A DNA stretch of 64,000 bases from Clostridia bacterium (GTDB taxonomy: Bacteria; Bacillota; Clostridia; Christensenellales; Borkfalkiaceae): contig JAJQAK010000167.1 of assembly GCA_021203845.1 (NCBI GenBank), forward strand, positions 1 to 64,000, read 5' to 3'. The notes below the pieces were generated by a model. It was not told where the DNA came from. It saw nothing but the letters and a program-made list of their open reading frames with translations, and made no database searches. The first letter of the stretch is position 1; each line of letters starts with the position of its first letter. Below, in pieces: positions 9,490 through 50,302 of this stretch. The position numbers and the translations under genes were made by a program.

Positions 9490-9518
9490 TTGACTTTTAT
9501 TGCACAAAATTTTATAAT
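9490..9518 (+). promoter_or_regulatory. SigA-type promoter for the greA-like gene
   Basis: TTGACT (9490-9495), 17-nt spacer, TATAAT (9513-9518). Confidence 0.75.
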
Positions 9519-9611: not shown

Positions 9612-11024
9612 ATGCCGGAACAACAGTTTGACATGACTCAGGAGACCTATGACTCGCTCAAAGAGCAGTTGGACGAACTCATAAAGGTTAGACGCCCGGA
9701 GATAGTCGAGCGTATAAAGGAGGCCAGGGGACACGGAGACCTTTCGGAAAACGCGGAATACGATGCCGCAAGAGAGGAACAACGTTCCAACGAAGGTAAA
9801 ATTGCCGAACTCGAATATCAGATAAAGAACGCGAACATCATAGAAGCCCCTAAGAGCAACATCGAAGTCGGGATCAATTCCGTTGTTAACGTCTTCGATA
9901 TATCGGTGGAAGCGCAATTCGTGGCCAAGGTAAAAAACGAGCTCAACGATGACGTAAAGTCGGAACTTACCGACAGCTATGTATCGCGGGTTTTGGCTGA
10001 CGTTGCCTCTGAGGCCAAGCACAGTGCCAAAGACGAATTGGATGTCACGCTTAGGGATGTCGAGAGCGTGAAATCGGAGTCTGGGAAAGAGAAAAGCACG
10101 AGGGCTGAGATAATCGGCAGGATAGAGAATGCGATAGATGTCAGGGTTGAAGAAATAAAAAAAGACAAGATCGAAGGAATAAGAAAGGAGATAGTCGACG
10201 AGATTATAGATGAGGTCGCCGCGGATGTGGAAATCGAGGCGATAACTGGCGTCAAACCCCCGCAGCCGATAACGGGAAACGATTTCGGTGTCGGAGCGGA
10301 TGCGGACGCCGAGGACGATGTTAAGAGAGAGAAGATGACCGTTGCGGGCGCGGAAACGTGGGTCCAGAAGACGGTAATCAGGAGACTGGAAAACAATCTG
10401 AAGGTCAGGATGAAGGCCGAAGTCGAGAAATCGGAAAAAACTAAACTGAGCGAACGACTTAAGGAGGAAAAACTGCCGGAGGCCGTCAGAAACGAGGAGA
10501 AAGAGAACGGAGGACCGTATACCATAACGTCGGTCACGGACTGCAACGTCATGGAAAACAAGATTTCAATGCAGTCTCCCGTCGGCGCCGCCCTCATGGG
10601 GCATCGTGTGGGAAAGAAGGTCAGTGTCCCCTGTCCGGACGGATCTTCATATGTACTTAGGATTCTGGGCATAAAGATAATCTCCGTCATAACGGTCGTT
10701 GACAAAGACACCGGGGAGGAAAAACGGGAGTACACCGTGACGTCCGCCGAAAATTACGACGGTATGAACAGTAAAGTTCCGGAGGGGTCGGCACTTGCCG
10801 ACGCACTGGTAGGTCACGGAGTCGGTGACAAGGTCTCTGTCCCGAGCGTTAGAGACAAAGCCGGGAAGAGGCCAAAGGAAAAAACCGACATGGGTTCTGT
10901 CGACGAGACATCGGGGGATAACGCCGCGCCCGCGGAAGACGCCCTTGCAGACGTATCCAAGCCCAAGGTCAAGGGAAAAAACAAAGGCAAGACGTGCACA
11001 ATAGAAATAAAGAGCGTTAAGTGA
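9612..11024 (+). CDS. greA: Enlarged GreA-like transcript cleavage factor with insertion and duplicated C-terminal domain
   Basis: N-terminus MTQETYDSLKEQLDELIKVRRPEIVERIKEARGHGDLSENAEYDAAREEQ is canonical GreA; GreA C-terminal domain at YTITSVTDCNVMENKISMQSPVGAALMGHRVGKKVSVP and a second copy at YTVTSAENYDGMNSKVPEGSALADALVGHGVGDKVSVP; directly upstream of lysS. Confidence 0.88.
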   Translation: MPEQQFDMTQETYDSLKEQLDELIKVRRPEIVERIKEARGHGDLSENAEYDAAREEQRSNEGKIAELEYQIKNANIIEAPKSNIEVGINSVVNVFDISVEAQFVAKVKNELNDDVKSELTDSYVSRVLADVASEAKHSAKDELDVTLRDVESVKSESGKEKSTRAEIIGRIENAIDVRVEEIKKDKIEGIRKEIVDEIIDEVAADVEIEAITGVKPPQPITGNDFGVGADADAEDDVKREKMTVAGAETWVQKTVIRRLENNLKVRMKAEVEKSEKTKLSERLKEEKLPEAVRNEEKENGGPYTITSVTDCNVMENKISMQSPVGAALMGHRVGKKVSVPCPDGSSYVLRILGIKIISVITVVDKDTGEEKREYTVTSAENYDGMNSKVPEGSALADALVGHGVGDKVSVPSVRDKAGKRPKEKTDMGSVDETSGDNAAPAEDALADVSKPKVKGKNKGKTCTIEIKSVK

Positions 11025-11025
11025 C

Positions 11026-12561
11026 ATGCAGAGCGATATCAACCAGGAAACGGTCGGCGGGGACGATCAGAACGACGAACAGTCGGAGGAACTTTTGGCG
11101 GAACAGGAGCAGATAAGGCTCCAGAAGCTTGCGAAGCTCCGTGAGGAGGGAAATGACCCTTACGTGAAGACGACGTATGAGGTCACGTCTGACTCCGAGG
11201 CCGTGAAAAGCAGCTTCAGTGAGCTCGAGGGGAAGGATGTTTCCGTCGCCGGACGCATCATGTCGCGCCGCATAATGGGAAAAGCCACGTTCTGCCACAT
11301 ACAGGACAGACACGGGCTTTTGCAGATATACGTAAAGCGAGACGACGTCGGGGAGGAGGCATACGCCTCCTTCAAAAAGGACTACGACATAGGCGATATC
11401 GTGGGAGTTTCCGGATTCGTCTTCAAGACGGGGACTGGCGAGGTCTCCGTACACTGCCGGCACATAGAGATGCTCACGAAAGCGCTCACACCGCTTCCCG
11501 AGAAGATGCACGGGCTCGTCAACACGGACATAAGGTACCGCCGGAGAGAGCTTGACCTCATCGTGAATCCGGACGTAAAGGACACGTTCGTAAAGCGTTC
11601 GCAGATTCTCCGCGAGATACGTGCGTATCTTGACGGCCTCGGATACATAGAGGTGGACACACCGACACTCACGACGTTCGAGATAGGGGCGAACGCGAGG
11701 CCGTTTATGACGCACCACAACGCGCTGGACCTTGATATGTACCTTCGCATAGAGACGGAGCTCTACCTCAAAAGGCTCATAGTCGGGGGGCTCGAGAAGG
11801 TGTACGAGGTGGGCAGGATATTCCGCAACGAGGGGATGGACGCATACCACAACCCTGAGTTCACGTCGATAGAAATGTACCAGGCCTACACCGACTACTT
11901 CGGCATGATGGACATCATAGAGGACCTTTACAGGACGGTCACGAAAAACGTCTGCGGGTCCGAGGTCATAACATATCAGGGCACGGAGATAGACATGGGC
12001 GCGAAATGGCCGAGATACACCATGAGGGAGTATGTCAAAAAAACGTGCGGTGCCGACTACGACGCATGGGGCTCGGACGAGGACGCCCGCGCCAGCGCGA
12101 AGGCTCTCGGATGCCCCGTGCCGGAGGGCGAGAAGGCCACGCGCGGGAACGTCCTTTTGGCACTTTTCGAGGAACTTTGTCAAAGCACGCTCGTGCAGCC
12201 CACGATAATATACGATTACCCCATAGAGAATTCGCCCCTCGCGAAGAGGAAAAAGGGCGATTCCCTTTTCACACAGCGATTCGAGTACTTCGTCTGCGGA
12301 CAGGAGTACGGCAACGCCTTTTCCGAGCTCAACGACCCCATAGATCAGAGGGAGAGGTTCGAAAAACAGGTCGCGCAAAAACGTGCGCAGGATAAAAACA
12401 GCAATGCGAGGGTGGATGAGGACTTCATAAACGCCCTCAAGCTCGGTCTCCCGCCCACGGGAGGACTCGGATTCGGGGTGGACAGGCTCGTCATGCTCCT
12501 TACGGACAGCCCCACGGTTAGGGACGTTCTGCTGTTCCCCACAATGAAACCCAGGAAATAG
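11026..12561 (+). CDS. lysS: Lysine--tRNA ligase (class II)
   Basis: 511 aa; OB-fold plus class II motifs YEVGRIFRNEGMDAYHNPEFTSIEMYQAY, GLPPTGGLGFGVDRLVMLLT. Confidence 0.98.
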   Translation: MQSDINQETVGGDDQNDEQSEELLAEQEQIRLQKLAKLREEGNDPYVKTTYEVTSDSEAVKSSFSELEGKDVSVAGRIMSRRIMGKATFCHIQDRHGLLQIYVKRDDVGEEAYASFKKDYDIGDIVGVSGFVFKTGTGEVSVHCRHIEMLTKALTPLPEKMHGLVNTDIRYRRRELDLIVNPDVKDTFVKRSQILREIRAYLDGLGYIEVDTPTLTTFEIGANARPFMTHHNALDLDMYLRIETELYLKRLIVGGLEKVYEVGRIFRNEGMDAYHNPEFTSIEMYQAYTDYFGMMDIIEDLYRTVTKNVCGSEVITYQGTEIDMGAKWPRYTMREYVKKTCGADYDAWGSDEDARASAKALGCPVPEGEKATRGNVLLALFEELCQSTLVQPTIIYDYPIENSPLAKRKKGDSLFTQRFEYFVCGQEYGNAFSELNDPIDQRERFEKQVAQKRAQDKNSNARVDEDFINALKLGLPPTGGLGFGVDRLVMLLTDSPTVRDVLLFPTMKPRK

Positions 12562-14064: not shown

Positions 14065-14755
14065 TATGGATAAATATCTGAATCCGGGGAACGGGAAGTT
14101 CCAGGAAGCTCTGAACACAAAACATACGTCGACAAGTCCGATCTCATAAAGTACACGAACGATGTAATCGATACTTTGGAAAAATATGTCTGTCTGTTCA
14201 GGCCCAGAAGATTCGGAAAAACCGTTGCCGCCTTCTCGACGCCACTACCAAGGCGGACGCGAAAGGTGTCGCCGAGACGCCGGGGAGGATATTTGCGTAT
14301 CTCACGAAAAGGACCGTTTACCCATATGAGAGTTCTTTCGCCGATTTTGTGGACTTTGCGTACATGTCCACGAACGATTATTGCGACATAATACCCGAGG
14401 CTCCGACGGGATGGCTTAAGAAGGCGGATTTCGTCCTGTATCCCAGCCTTCTTCGCGCGAGAGCCGACAGAACGCATCTTCCCGGGATAATAATTGAGCT
14501 CAAAAACGAGAAGTCTGAAAAAAGCCGCTGATCAGATAGAGGGGAAGGGGTACGACGACTACTTCGAGTAGAGGAAGTATCACGGCGACGTCATACACGT
14601 GGGACTGGACTTTCAGAAGATGACGCCGAAGGGAAGGCAGGCACTCGCCGCGACAGAAACTGTTTCGGAAGAAGGCGTGTTTTTCGGCAACGACGCGAAT
14701 CTGAACATACAGTCGAAGAATGTGCATATTTGTGAAATCAGGAAGCACACGATTT
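14065..14755 (+). pseudogene. AAA-ATPase-like/PD-(D/E)XK nuclease family protein, decayed copy A
   Basis: MDKYLNPGNGKFQEALNTK then frameshift to TYVDKSDLIKYTNDVIDTLEKYVCLFRPRRFGKTVAA, large internal deletion, then DIIPEAPTGWLKKADFVLYP...LPGIIIELKNEK and an in-frame stop. Confidence 0.85.
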
Positions 14756-14981
14756 GAATCGGAATACATCACGGGCGGGACGGTGTCGTTCCGCTTTTTT
14801 GGTATCGGAACGCATAGGTCGGGGTCAGTACGCGAGCTCTTTGGAGAAGAATCGTATCGACCCGGCATCGAGTCGGGTTCGGGCACTATTAGGCTCTTTA
14901 GCTCGCTATTCATATTGCTTTTTGGTTGCGGGCTGTGTTATAATTTCGTGTAAGATACAAAAGCGGGTACGTGTTGATAAT

Positions 14982-16688
14982 ATGACACTTGGCAAAGTGG
15001 AAGAAAACATGGGGGCAAATTCCCAAAATTTCATAAAGATTTCGAAGCAGGGATATTACGTCGACAAATCTCTTTTTATCAAAGACCTGGTCGATTCGGG
15101 CGAAGAGGTGACTTTGATAACCAGGCCCAGACGTTTCGGAAAGTCTCTGAATCTTGACATGGTGAGGACTTTTTTTGAAAAAACTGACGAAGACACGTCC
15201 GCTTATTTCAGAGATTTTGAAATTTGGAAATGCGGCAACGAATATACGTCGCTGCAGGGAAAGTTCCCCGTCATATATCTGGATTTTAAAAGCGTGTCGG
15301 AGTCTACCTGGGAGAAGCAGTTCGGATGTTTTAAAAAGGTCATTGCAAACGAATATTTTAGGCATGCAGACGAGTTGCAAGGTTATATTCCAGAGCTTAG
15401 ACTTAAAGTATATAAGCGCATATCGGAAGAAGACGGGACGGAAGCGGACTGCGAGGATTCGATAAGGCTTCTGACGGAGTTGCTTCACAAGAGGTATGGG
15501 ATGGCCCCGATTGTTCTGATAGATGAATATGACGCTCCCATTCAGTCAGCCATTGACCATGATTTTTACACCGAGAACGAAGATTTTATCAGGAACTTTT
15601 TTGCCACGTCCTTTAAAGGGAATCGGGACCTTAACTTCGCCCTTCTCACGGGTGTCAATCAAATCACCGGAGCGGGGCTGTACAGCGGTTTCAACAACGC
15701 AAAAATATATACCGTTTTAGACGACAGATACAGTGAATATTTCGGCTTCACGGGAGATGAAGTCAGAAAACTTTTGCAAGACTTCGGTGCCGCAGAAAAA
15801 TACGACGAGGTCTGTGAATGGTATGATGGATACATTTTCGGACATGAGGAAATTTTCAACCCCATTTCTATTTTGAGCTATGTGACAAATGGGTTCAAAC
15901 CTCACGCATATTGGGTAGCCACATCCGGTCAAACTGTGTTCAAGACGATGATAAGAAAAATCACGAACGAGGTTTTGGACAAGCTGATTGATCTGTCCCT
16001 CGGCAAGTGCATCTCCGTCCCGGTCAAAACCAATCTCACTTATGACGATCTCAATGATGTCAACAATGTGTATTCCGTTCTTTTTATAACAGGGTATATC
16101 AAGTTATACGTTCCCGAAGGGGAAAATTATGAAAAAGAGTTACGTAAAGCCATAGAGTCTGCAAAAGACGATAAAGAGAACAAGTTTAAGCTTGTGAACA
16201 AGGAGATTGCCGAGGCATACGTCAAAGACATTTTGGAATACGCCGAAGGCATGTTCAGATTTGATTTTGTCGATAATCTACAGAATGCCCTGAACAAGAG
16301 AGACATAAATCTCATAGAAAAAGAACTCAAGGAGTATATCTCTGAGTCCGTCAGCTTTTACAACAATCAGGAAAGCCTTTATCACGGCATTGTCCTGGGG
16401 CTACTCAGGACAATGCGTTCGATATATGCCATAACATCTGACAGAGAATCGGGAGAGGGTAGATACGACATAACGGCCGAGCCGCTCCGCGGATTAAACT
16501 CGCTTCCCGGAATCGTGCTTGAGCTCAAAGTTTGCAAAAAGAGAGAGAATTTGTCGAAAAGAGCGAAAGAGGCTCTTGACCAGATTAACAGGAAGGATTA
16601 CGCACGCGACATGGTGACCAGGGGCGTTAAAGACGTCCTAAAGATAGGCATGGCTTTCTACGGAAAGAAAGTTGAGTTCGCGTCGTGA
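14982..16688 (+). CDS. AAA-ATPase-like + PD-(D/E)XK nuclease domain protein, copy B
   Basis: 568 aa; YYVDKSLFIKDL, RPRRFGKSLNLDM, IDEYDAPIQSA, C-terminal GEGRYDITAEPL...GIVLELKVCKK...AKEALDQINRKDYARDM...KIGMAFYGKKV. Own TATAAT at ~14940. Confidence 0.93.
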   Translation: MTLGKVEENMGANSQNFIKISKQGYYVDKSLFIKDLVDSGEEVTLITRPRRFGKSLNLDMVRTFFEKTDEDTSAYFRDFEIWKCGNEYTSLQGKFPVIYLDFKSVSESTWEKQFGCFKKVIANEYFRHADELQGYIPELRLKVYKRISEEDGTEADCEDSIRLLTELLHKRYGMAPIVLIDEYDAPIQSAIDHDFYTENEDFIRNFFATSFKGNRDLNFALLTGVNQITGAGLYSGFNNAKIYTVLDDRYSEYFGFTGDEVRKLLQDFGAAEKYDEVCEWYDGYIFGHEEIFNPISILSYVTNGFKPHAYWVATSGQTVFKTMIRKITNEVLDKLIDLSLGKCISVPVKTNLTYDDLNDVNNVYSVLFITGYIKLYVPEGENYEKELRKAIESAKDDKENKFKLVNKEIAEAYVKDILEYAEGMFRFDFVDNLQNALNKRDINLIEKELKEYISESVSFYNNQESLYHGIVLGLLRTMRSIYAITSDRESGEGRYDITAEPLRGLNSLPGIVLELKVCKKRENLSKRAKEALDQINRKDYARDMVTRGVKDVLKIGMAFYGKKVEFAS

Positions 16689-22267: not shown

Positions 22268-22358
22268 GATATTTAGCGAAATACCTTGAAAATTTTTTAA
22301 AATATGTTAAACTAGAGGAAAGAAAAGGAAGGAGTCATTTAAATTGCGGAGGTGTTTT

Positions 22359-23931
22359 ATGAGAAGATTTTTAAATCCCCCCATAGACAATTTCACAAGA
22401 TATATAAATGAAAAAATTTTTGTTGATAAGAGCGGAATTATAGACTATACAAACAGTGTCATTGATTCCCTGGACGCTTTTATCTGTGTAAGTCGACCGA
22501 GAAGATTCGGGAAATCGGTTGTCGCAAATATGCTCGTTGCTTACTATGAGTCCGGATGTAAATCTAAAACGCTGTTTAAACACTTGGCCATATCGAAAAC
22601 CAAATTGTTTAAGAAACATCTTAATAAGTATAACGTCATATATATCGATATGGCGGATTATTTTAAATCGGATATAGAGGTGTCCGCCGGGCTTGAAAAA
22701 CTGAAAGACGAACTTGTTGACGAATTTAATAAAGAATACACCGATAGGTCTTTTGACAAAGACAAGATGGTATCCATGTTTAATGAGATATATGAGAGAA
22801 CTAACAGAAAGTTTGTTTTTGTAATTGACGAATGGGATTGTCCGTTTAGACGCAGAGTAGGAGATGTCAAAGGGCAAAAAAAATATTTGGAATTTCTTAA
22901 TGAACTGCTGAAAGAAAAAAATTATGTTGCCTTGGCCTACATGACCGGAATACTTCCCATAAAGAAAACGGGCGATGAATCATCGCTTAACATGTTCAGC
23001 GAGAAGACAATTATAAATGCGTCTCCCCTGCAGGAGTATTTCGGATTCACGGAGTCGGAAGTCAAGAGTCTGTGTGAAAAATTCGGTTGTTCATATGAAG
23101 GTGTCAGGTTTTGGTATGACGGATACACCGTGAACGGAATACAACTTTACAATCCTAGGTCCGTTGTGGAGGCAATCAAATCGGGTGTATTAGAGAACTA
23201 CTGGACTCAGACACAGACTTTTGAGGCGTTACAAAGCTATATAGGTGCGAATTTATTTGGTATTCACGATGCAATAACCACTTTGCTTTCCGGGGAGCAT
23301 ATAAAAATTGATACAACAAAGTTCAAAAACGATATGGTCACTTTTAAATCCGGGGACGACATTCTTACGCTTCTCGTCCATTTGGGATATTTGACCTATG
23401 ATATTGAGACAAAGAAGGTTGGCATACCGAATCATGAGATTTATTCCGAGTTTATGTCCGTTATAACCGATATGGGTTGGGAGGATACCGTGAGGCAGAT
23501 TGAAATCTCGGAAAAAGCCATGGGGGGCAATTCTTGCGAAGGATGAGAAAACCGTTGCTGAAATTGTTGCGGCCGTGCACAGGCAGAAGCCCGTTCTTAA
23601 TGGAAACAAAGAGACGACTTTGTACGAGGTCGTGAACGATGCATTCTTTACCGCTAGAAATTACTATAGTTTGGTTCCTGAAATGCCGGCAGGCGGAGGA
23701 TTTATCGATATATTGTTTATCCCGAATCGTAATACATCGAGACCGATGATGGTAGTTGAACTTAAGAGTAATAGTGTCGACACCGAAAAGACCGCGCTGA
23801 AACAGATTAAGGACAATCATTATACGGAGGCTCTTTCCGGATACAAGGGTAAGATTTTGCTTGTCGGAATAAGTTATAAAACGGAGAGAGAAGAGCATAC
23901 ATGTGTCATAGAAGAGGTGGAGAAGAATTAA
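22359..23931 (+). pseudogene. AAA-ATPase-like/PD-(D/E)XK nuclease family protein, copy C (split by a single frameshift)
   Basis: ATPase part MRRFLNPPIDNFTRYINEKIFVDKSGIIDYTN...VSRPRRFGKSVVANM ends after a G6 run at ~23523-23528; nuclease part WGAILAKDEKTVAEIV...DLFYSLVPEMPAGGGFIDILFIP...MMVVELKSN follows in the next frame. Confidence 0.85.
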
Positions 23932-48694: not shown

Positions 48695-50302
48695 ATGGGA
48701 ATTTATCTGAATCCCGGAAACATCCTTTTTCGGAATCATGTCAGAAATAAAAATTACGTTGACAAGAGCGGTCTTATAGCATGTCTTAATGACTATATGA
48801 CCAATGAAGACAAGAAATGTGTCTGTGTTTCACGTCCCAGACGATTCGGGAAATCCTACGCCGCCGACATGGTTACCGCCTATTATGGGCGTGGGTGTGA
48901 CTCGCATACTCTTTTTGACGCGTCTGAAATTTCCAAAAGCCCTGATTATGAGACGCACATCAATAAGTATGACGTCGTCTATCTTGACGCCTCAAATTTT
49001 TTTCAACAAATGCGTCAGCAACAGGGACTGACGATTTCGCAGAGTGTGCTTAGGTTCATCGAGTTGTTGACCGATGAAATAATGGACGAATACCCCGATG
49101 TATCCAGAGGAAAAGAAGCTTTCAGCGCATATCTGGCGAAAGTGAGCACGTTTTCGGGTACATCGTTTGTTTTTGTGATAGACGAATGGGACGCCGTCTT
49201 CCGTATTTTTAAAGACGACGTCGAGGGACAGAGGGAGTATCTCGGATTTTTAAACTCGCTGTTCAAACAGCAAAGTTACGTTGCTCTCGCCTACATGACG
49301 GGAATTCTTCCAATAAAGAAATACGGGACGCATTCCGCTCTCAACATGTTCAAGGAAATCTCCATGACGAACGCCGATCCCTTGCAGGAATACATGGGCT
49401 TCACGGAAAAAGAGGTGAAGATTCTTTGTAAACGCGCAAAATGCGGAAGAAGGAAAAAGAACGGAATCAAAGAATGGTACAACGGATACACCGTGAACGG
49501 ACTTCGCATATACAATCCTTATGCTGTGGGCGAGGCCATACGCTCGGCGGAACCTCTTCACGGATACTGGACAGCTACCGAGACGTATGAGGCGCTTGAG
49601 GTGTATATCTTGACGAACGCCTACGGAGTTCAGGACAGACTCGTCGACCTTCTCGCAGGTAAACCCGTCGAGGTCAAAACGGACAAATTCACGAACGACA
49701 TGGTGACGTTCAGGAGCTGCGACGACGTTCTCACGCTTCTCATTCATCTCGGGTATCTCACGATGTTCGTAGATGGCGATAAGAAGTATGTCCGCATCCC
49801 CAACCGTGAGATAAGGGAGCAGTTTGTCACGACCATGGTGTCGGACGGTTTCGGCAATTTTGACGAGGCGAGAAAAGATTCGGAGAAAGTCTTCCGGGCG
49901 ACGCTTGACGGTGACGCGGAGACGGTCGCGAAATACGTGCAGATAATTCACCGCAGACGGGCCTCCGGCAGGGAATACCATTACGAGCTCTCGCTGAAAT
50001 ACTGTGTGGAGTTCGCATATCTCGCCGCGGAAGATTTATACAACGTGGTACCCGAGATGCCGGCGGGCGACGGGTTCGCGGACGTCGGATACATACCCGT
50101 AAACGGGCTTAACACAAAGTATCCGCCCATGATAATCGAGCTTAAGGTGAATAAATCCGCGGAAGGCGCCTTGAAACAGGCTTTAGACAAGATGTATCAG
50201 CAATTCCTTTCCGCCTATCACGGACCCGTCATAGTCGTCGGCATAAATTACGATGAAAAGACAAAAGAGCACACCTGCGAGATAAAAAAAGTCCCGGTGT
50301 AG
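48695..50302 (+). CDS. AAA-ATPase-like + PD-(D/E)XK nuclease domain protein, intact copy F
   Basis: 535 aa; MGIYLNPGNILFRNHVRNKNYVDKSGLI, VSRPRRFGKSYAADM, FVIDEWDAVF, EMPAGDGFADVGYIP...PPMIIELKVNK. Confidence 0.94.
   Translation: MGIYLNPGNILFRNHVRNKNYVDKSGLIACLNDYMTNEDKKCVCVSRPRRFGKSYAADMVTAYYGRGCDSHTLFDASEISKSPDYETHINKYDVVYLDASNFFQQMRQQQGLTISQSVLRFIELLTDEIMDEYPDVSRGKEAFSAYLAKVSTFSGTSFVFVIDEWDAVFRIFKDDVEGQREYLGFLNSLFKQQSYVALAYMTGILPIKKYGTHSALNMFKEISMTNADPLQEYMGFTEKEVKILCKRAKCGRRKKNGIKEWYNGYTVNGLRIYNPYAVGEAIRSAEPLHGYWTATETYEALEVYILTNAYGVQDRLVDLLAGKPVEVKTDKFTNDMVTFRSCDDVLTLLIHLGYLTMFVDGDKKYVRIPNREIREQFVTTMVSDGFGNFDEARKDSEKVFRATLDGDAETVAKYVQIIHRRRASGREYHYELSLKYCVEFAYLAAEDLYNVVPEMPAGDGFADVGYIPVNGLNTKYPPMIIELKVNKSAEGALKQALDKMYQQFLSAYHGPVIVVGINYDEKTKEHTCEIKKVPV

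Follow-up and report, generated by a model that had tools for sequence, protein, structure and literature searches.

A giant GreA with an interrupted and a second C-terminal domain in a Clostridia bacterium

GreA is normally a small protein, which rescues stalled RNA polymerase (RNAP). In the window analysed here, a stretch of 64,000 nucleotides from a Clostridia bacterium, a much larger protein of this type had been proposed, with an intact coiled-coil tip, a long charged interruption of its C-terminal domain and a second copy of that domain. The locus raises the question of whether such a protein is still a GreA, in which order it was enlarged and what its additional segments might do. We conclude that the unusual GreA architecture of the window species is real and well supported, and we suggest a reading in which the additional segments are accessory to a working factor.

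Architecture of the giant protein

The claim of a GreA-type protein of about 470 residues holds: the frame at this position (Table 1) passes the Pfam GreA models and both NCBIfam GreA models, scoring 154.1 bits with TIGR01462 (cut-off 139) and 162.2 bits with NF001263 (cut-off 145), and it stays below the GreB equivalog models (76 bits vs 188 and 69.2 vs 171). Pfam recognises GreA_GreB_N at residues 8-76 and GreA_GreB in two stretches. The contiguous two-domain layout of about 158 residues is lost, the first C-terminal domain being split and a second copy added; that layout is a trait of size and architecture and no functional criterion of TIGR01462 or NF001263. The gene starts with an ATG preceded by a ribosome-binding site, GAGGTGAAAA, and all its parts have uniform codon usage and three-base periodicity. 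It occupies the usual greA place upstream of lysS, as stated in the original prediction, and this gene order is common to the window species and its congeners. The promoter-like site upstream matches the consensus at 11 of 12 positions; three such sites were found in the region, with 1.7 expected in shuffles, and its assignment as the promoter of greA is suggestive only. We note that elsewhere in the window three proteins (14754-16688, 22344-23546 and 48695-50302) resemble, by eye, an AAA-ATPase-like/PD-(D/E)XK nuclease family.

Table 1. Position of the giant greA, its parts and its flanking features in the window.
Feature	Residues	Positions	Strand	Basis or remark
Promoter-like site TTGACT-17-TATAAT		9490..9518	+	94 bases 5' of greA start codon
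Giant greA, 470 aa		9612..11024	+	Open frame; Pfam and NCBIfam GreA models
N-terminal coiled coil (GreA_GreB_N), tip acids D43 and E46	8-76	9633..9839	+	Pfam, 98.5 bits
First strand of first C-terminal domain (VGINSVVNVFD)	83-96	9858..9899	+	Congener alignment
Insert, charged, predicted helical	97-302	9900..10517	+	Congener alignment, AlphaFold
Rest of first C-terminal domain, RNAP-docking SPVGAAL helix	303-355	10518..10676	+	Pfam
Core of second, diverged C-terminal domain	356-411	10677..10844	+	Pfam, 28.0 bits alone vs 26.9
Charged linker in second domain	412-459	10845..10988	+	AlphaFold; layout in sister species
Last strand of second domain (KTCTIEIKSVK)	460-470	10989..11021	+	Sister alignment; AlphaFold strand 461-469
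lysS, 511 aa, normal size		11026..12561	+	ATG one base past greA stop; 520 aa in congener G102

The coiled coil is that of an ordinary GreA. AlphaFold predicts its helices at residues 10-39 and 48-72 with pLDDT above 90, and the tip, GDLSENAEYDAA, is intact with both of its acidic residues, as had been proposed; it is invariant in 56 aligned GreAs. In Escherichia coli GreA, the two catalytic acids, D41 and E44, act at the catalytic magnesium, while the globular domain docks on the rim helices of RNAP β′ (PMC7527559). The FKBP-like C-terminal domain with its SPxG docking helix is represented by the first domain, though in split form: residues 303-355 alone score 52.5 bits (Pfam cut-off 26.9), and the serine and proline of the SPVGAAL helix are nearly invariant among the 56 aligned GreAs. 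S124 and L130 of the E. coli protein, whose mutation nearly abolishes antipause activity (PMC7527559), map to conserved positions in this helix.

Both Pfam and the congener alignment support an interruption of the first C-terminal domain directly after its first strand. Its length was put at about 220 charged residues; we find about 206, which replace a β1-β2 turn of about eight residues in the congeners (VTVxD-EEFGEEEV-YTITS). The frame is open over these 206 codons, and codon usage and periodicity match the rest of greA. In the insert (counted over residues 97-299), 36 residues are basic and 49 acidic; glycine and proline are scarce, and cysteine is absent. In an AlphaFold model of moderate overall quality (pTM 0.49), it is predicted to form helices at 114-154, 162-212 and 234-286, each of 41-53 residues and mostly with pLDDT of 60-85. 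The same model places a strand at 101-108, which we did not accept as β2: it mirrors the alignment supplied, and Pfam puts β2 3' of the insert. An extra interaction or a regulatory role of the insert is possible; located inside the docking domain, it could also impair docking.

The profile search of the insert region by itself that had been proposed matched no Pfam domain. More widely, no relatives of the insert were found in Pfam, PHROGs, the PDB, the remainder of its own genome, 92 congeners, phages or plasmids, nor in genome contigs and viral contigs, the scans of which are sensitive to close relatives alone. We rejected three candidate origins. For a known domain, Pfam and the PDB gave no match, and the best one among PHROGs (E 0.13) was not convincing. 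An origin as a repeat or mobile element does not fit a segment that is single-copy in the genome, has no phage or plasmid relatives and lacks long direct repeats at its ends. Descent shared with the congeners would rest on three weak matches in 92 species (best E 0.004, 24% identity), which we took as chance similarity among charged helical proteins. The insert has been seen in a single metagenome assembly and in one of 93 species (the window species and its 92 congeners), and is, as far as these searches reach, an orphan.

The proposed second copy of the C-terminal domain is supported by its score on its own, which passes the PF01272 gathering cut-off (28.0 vs 26.9 bits), and by an orthologous copy in the sister species. 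Its SPxG motif is lost, the corresponding residues being GSALA in the window species and DSELG in the sister. Since the proline is missing, the second domain probably makes no rim-helix contact of the kind expected of the first. A linker of roughly 50 residues ahead of the last strand was correctly foreseen; it occupies some 48 residues, is placed alike in the sister protein and is probably disordered, with predicted pLDDT below 50 at residues 415-456. We found no account of tandem GreA C-terminal domains in the open-access literature.

Order of enlargement and other Gre-type genes

The relatives of the window species make it possible to order these changes. A GreA C-terminal domain was found by search in 87 of the 92 congeners, and the congener GreAs examined in detail have 152-157 residues. 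Open frames of 667-700 residues in some relatives suggested a GreA-LysS fusion, which we discarded since the frames, read directly, are ordinary (158-176). The sister species, Clostridia bacterium BH.B1_2 (JAJQAJ010000096.1), has a GreA of 283 residues in which an uninterrupted first domain is followed by a second domain with the linker; this protein is 57% identical to the giant over the alignment and lacks the insert. Sister species aside, the matches listed for the 92 congeners, and the best ones listed for 257 genomes of the order, are of ordinary size or show no comparable architecture.

In a LysS tree, the window species and BH.B1_2 are sisters (SH-aLRT 100; LysS identity 85%), and their second GreA domains cluster together with a support of 0.97. 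As the sister has the second domain but not the insert, and the second domains group together, the duplication predates the split of the two species and the insert was acquired afterwards, only by the window species. Judged from these sequences, the growth of GreA is stepwise, with the C-terminal domain duplicated first and the insertion following. GreA is among the most size-constrained transcription factors, and here ancestral, intermediate and giant forms coexist in close relatives. They provide a natural set of proteins with which to ask what a secondary-channel factor tolerates and whether a docking domain can bear cargo.

The original prediction had also considered that the giant might be the only GreA of the organism. 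As worded, this does not stand: the search for another greA, in a genome that is about 93% complete, recovered a Gre-type protein of 162 residues on contig C50 (4866 bp). However, the tip of this paralogue, GKFMLNPEFDAA, has lysine and leucine at the two catalytic acid positions. Because the paralogue lost both acids, no GreA with an intact tip, and by sequence no Gre factor with a cleavage-competent tip, was detected in the genome besides the giant. We considered C50 as contamination and rejected it; its tetranucleotide profile correlates with that of the window at 0.82, equal to the highest of the tested genome pieces, which suggests that the contig belongs to the genome of the window species. 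The genes next to that of the paralogue encode a RecD-like ATPase and a protein whose sequence looks, by eye, TIR-like and UvrD-like.

Two further Gre-type genes were observed in other genomes. One (L152:729-1244, contig G068:C42) joins a hydrophobic, probably membrane-spanning N-terminal part to a GreA-type C-terminal domain (35.1 bits) and has no coiled coil. The other (contig G005:C1) is a second, divergent GreA that is 39% identical to the window protein and contains ambiguous bases; this contig may be contamination, because in the tree its LysS sits on a very long branch.

RNA polymerase and the meaning of the additional segments

GreA is not the only enlarged component of the transcription machinery. 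RpoB of the window species (contig G000:C67, a minus-strand frame of 1717 codons) has 1709 residues, against approximately 1338-1349 in the congeners, because a lobe module of about 65 residues is sixfold and not single; it stands in six tandem copies, with one in the congeners and in the sister. The module has no Pfam model. It carries a TGE motif and has a lobe-type, lineage-specific position as described for BEAN domains, insert domains of RNAP β (PMC11515920), which it resembles. In the part of RpoC covered (the C-terminal third runs past the end of the contig and could not be located on another one), there is no rim-helix insertion, and the sole insertion is one of 12 residues at 525-536. 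The sister (contig G070:C28) has C-terminal tails on RpoB and RpoC that are longer than those of congener G102 by 41 and 71 residues, respectively. NusA, NusG and the genes neighbouring greA are of ordinary size. Genome-wide growth of proteins was considered and rejected: the many insertions of a first pass came mostly from antisense frames, and after cleaning, internal insertions of at least 50 residues remained in two of 49 orthologue pairs, RpoB and GreA, in a set biased by RNAP contigs that were fetched on purpose.

We favour, with reasonable confidence, a functional GreA whose RNAP-docking half was enlarged stepwise and which carries the insert and the second domain as accessory arms. The second C-terminal domain and its charged linker arose by tandem duplication in the common ancestor of the window species and its sister, and a helix-rich segment of about 206 residues later entered the β1-β2 hairpin of the first domain in the window species alone. 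The coiled coil and the first C-terminal domain would work like those of an ordinary GreA through the secondary channel, with the tip triggering cleavage of backtracked RNA. The insert and the second domain would lie outside the channel, where they may touch RNAP or a partner and tune binding or recruitment.

A serious rival is neutral accretion, in which the extra segments are passengers tolerated under weak selection and GreA works despite them; we rate it as a real though lesser possibility. The orphan status of the insert and its presence in one of 93 species fit this explanation, as do the linkers, which are poorly conserved and predicted to be disordered, and the multiplied RpoB modules could mean that in-frame duplications tend to be retained in general. 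Against it, there is no broad protein bloat, since only RpoB and GreA stand out among the 49 cleaned pairs; the duplicated domain with its linker has persisted from before the divergence of the two species; and the insert has an uninterrupted reading frame and long helices that look amphipathic in the AlphaFold model. Our estimates for the two explanations overlap, because a working GreA may carry neutral arms.

It is unlikely that the giant has become a regulator comparable to Gfh1 or Rnk and left cleavage to another factor. In favour of this reading, its docking domain is interrupted, its second domain has diverged, and other roles have been described for Gre paralogues (Gfh1, Rv3788 and Rnk; PMC4598747). 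Yet the tip acids and the docking motif are kept in the giant and lost in the sole paralogue found, the usual greA place is kept as well, and if one of the two has taken on another role, this is more likely to be the C50 paralogue.

A slightly less probable proposal, which we regard as doubtful, is that GreA and RNAP grew jointly, such that the polymerase, perhaps at its six-module β lobe, is contacted through a new interface made up of the insert and the second domain, and GreA remains tethered to the enzyme or comes under the control of a partner. The joint growth is suggestive and is not a statistical result, because the insert was the reason for selecting GreA, and RpoB was retrieved deliberately. 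The lobe module is presumably not located beside the secondary channel, so that direct contact between GreA and the lobe is speculative. The parallel expansion constitutes a natural experiment on the joint enlargement of a factor and its polymerase. Finally, a misjoining of the insert or the second domain during metagenome assembly or binning is very improbable: the insert does come from a single assembly, but the independent sister assembly has the second domain and linker, the gene is one unbroken frame of uniform codon usage, and no further copy of the insert is present in the genome.

Comparison with known systems

The giant GreA shares with the canonical protein (E. coli, PDB 1grj) the coiled coil, the GDLxENAEY tip and a single full complement of C-terminal strands with an SPxG helix; canonical GreA has about 156-158 residues, whereas the giant adds the long β1-β2 insert and a second domain with an internal linker. 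The 283-residue protein of BH.B1_2 is closest, having the same tandem C-terminal domains with a charged linker at the same place, and differs in the absence of the insert. Gfh1, Rv3788 and Rnk likewise combine a coiled coil with a GreA-type C-terminal domain, and a foldseek search matched the giant to the Gfh1 fold; unlike them, the giant has a tip of the GreA type and passes the GreA cut-offs. The C50 paralogue, with its acids replaced, is closer than the giant to a non-cleaving factor of the Gfh1 type. As for BEAN domains, the comparable module in the window species is part of RpoB, not of GreA, and is multiplied relative to the congeners. In the NCBIfam families PRK14720 and PRK06330 (906 and 718 positions), a GreA part is also found within a larger protein, but there it is C-terminal (positions 746-828 and 569-658, respectively), whereas the giant has grown within and after its C-terminal domain.
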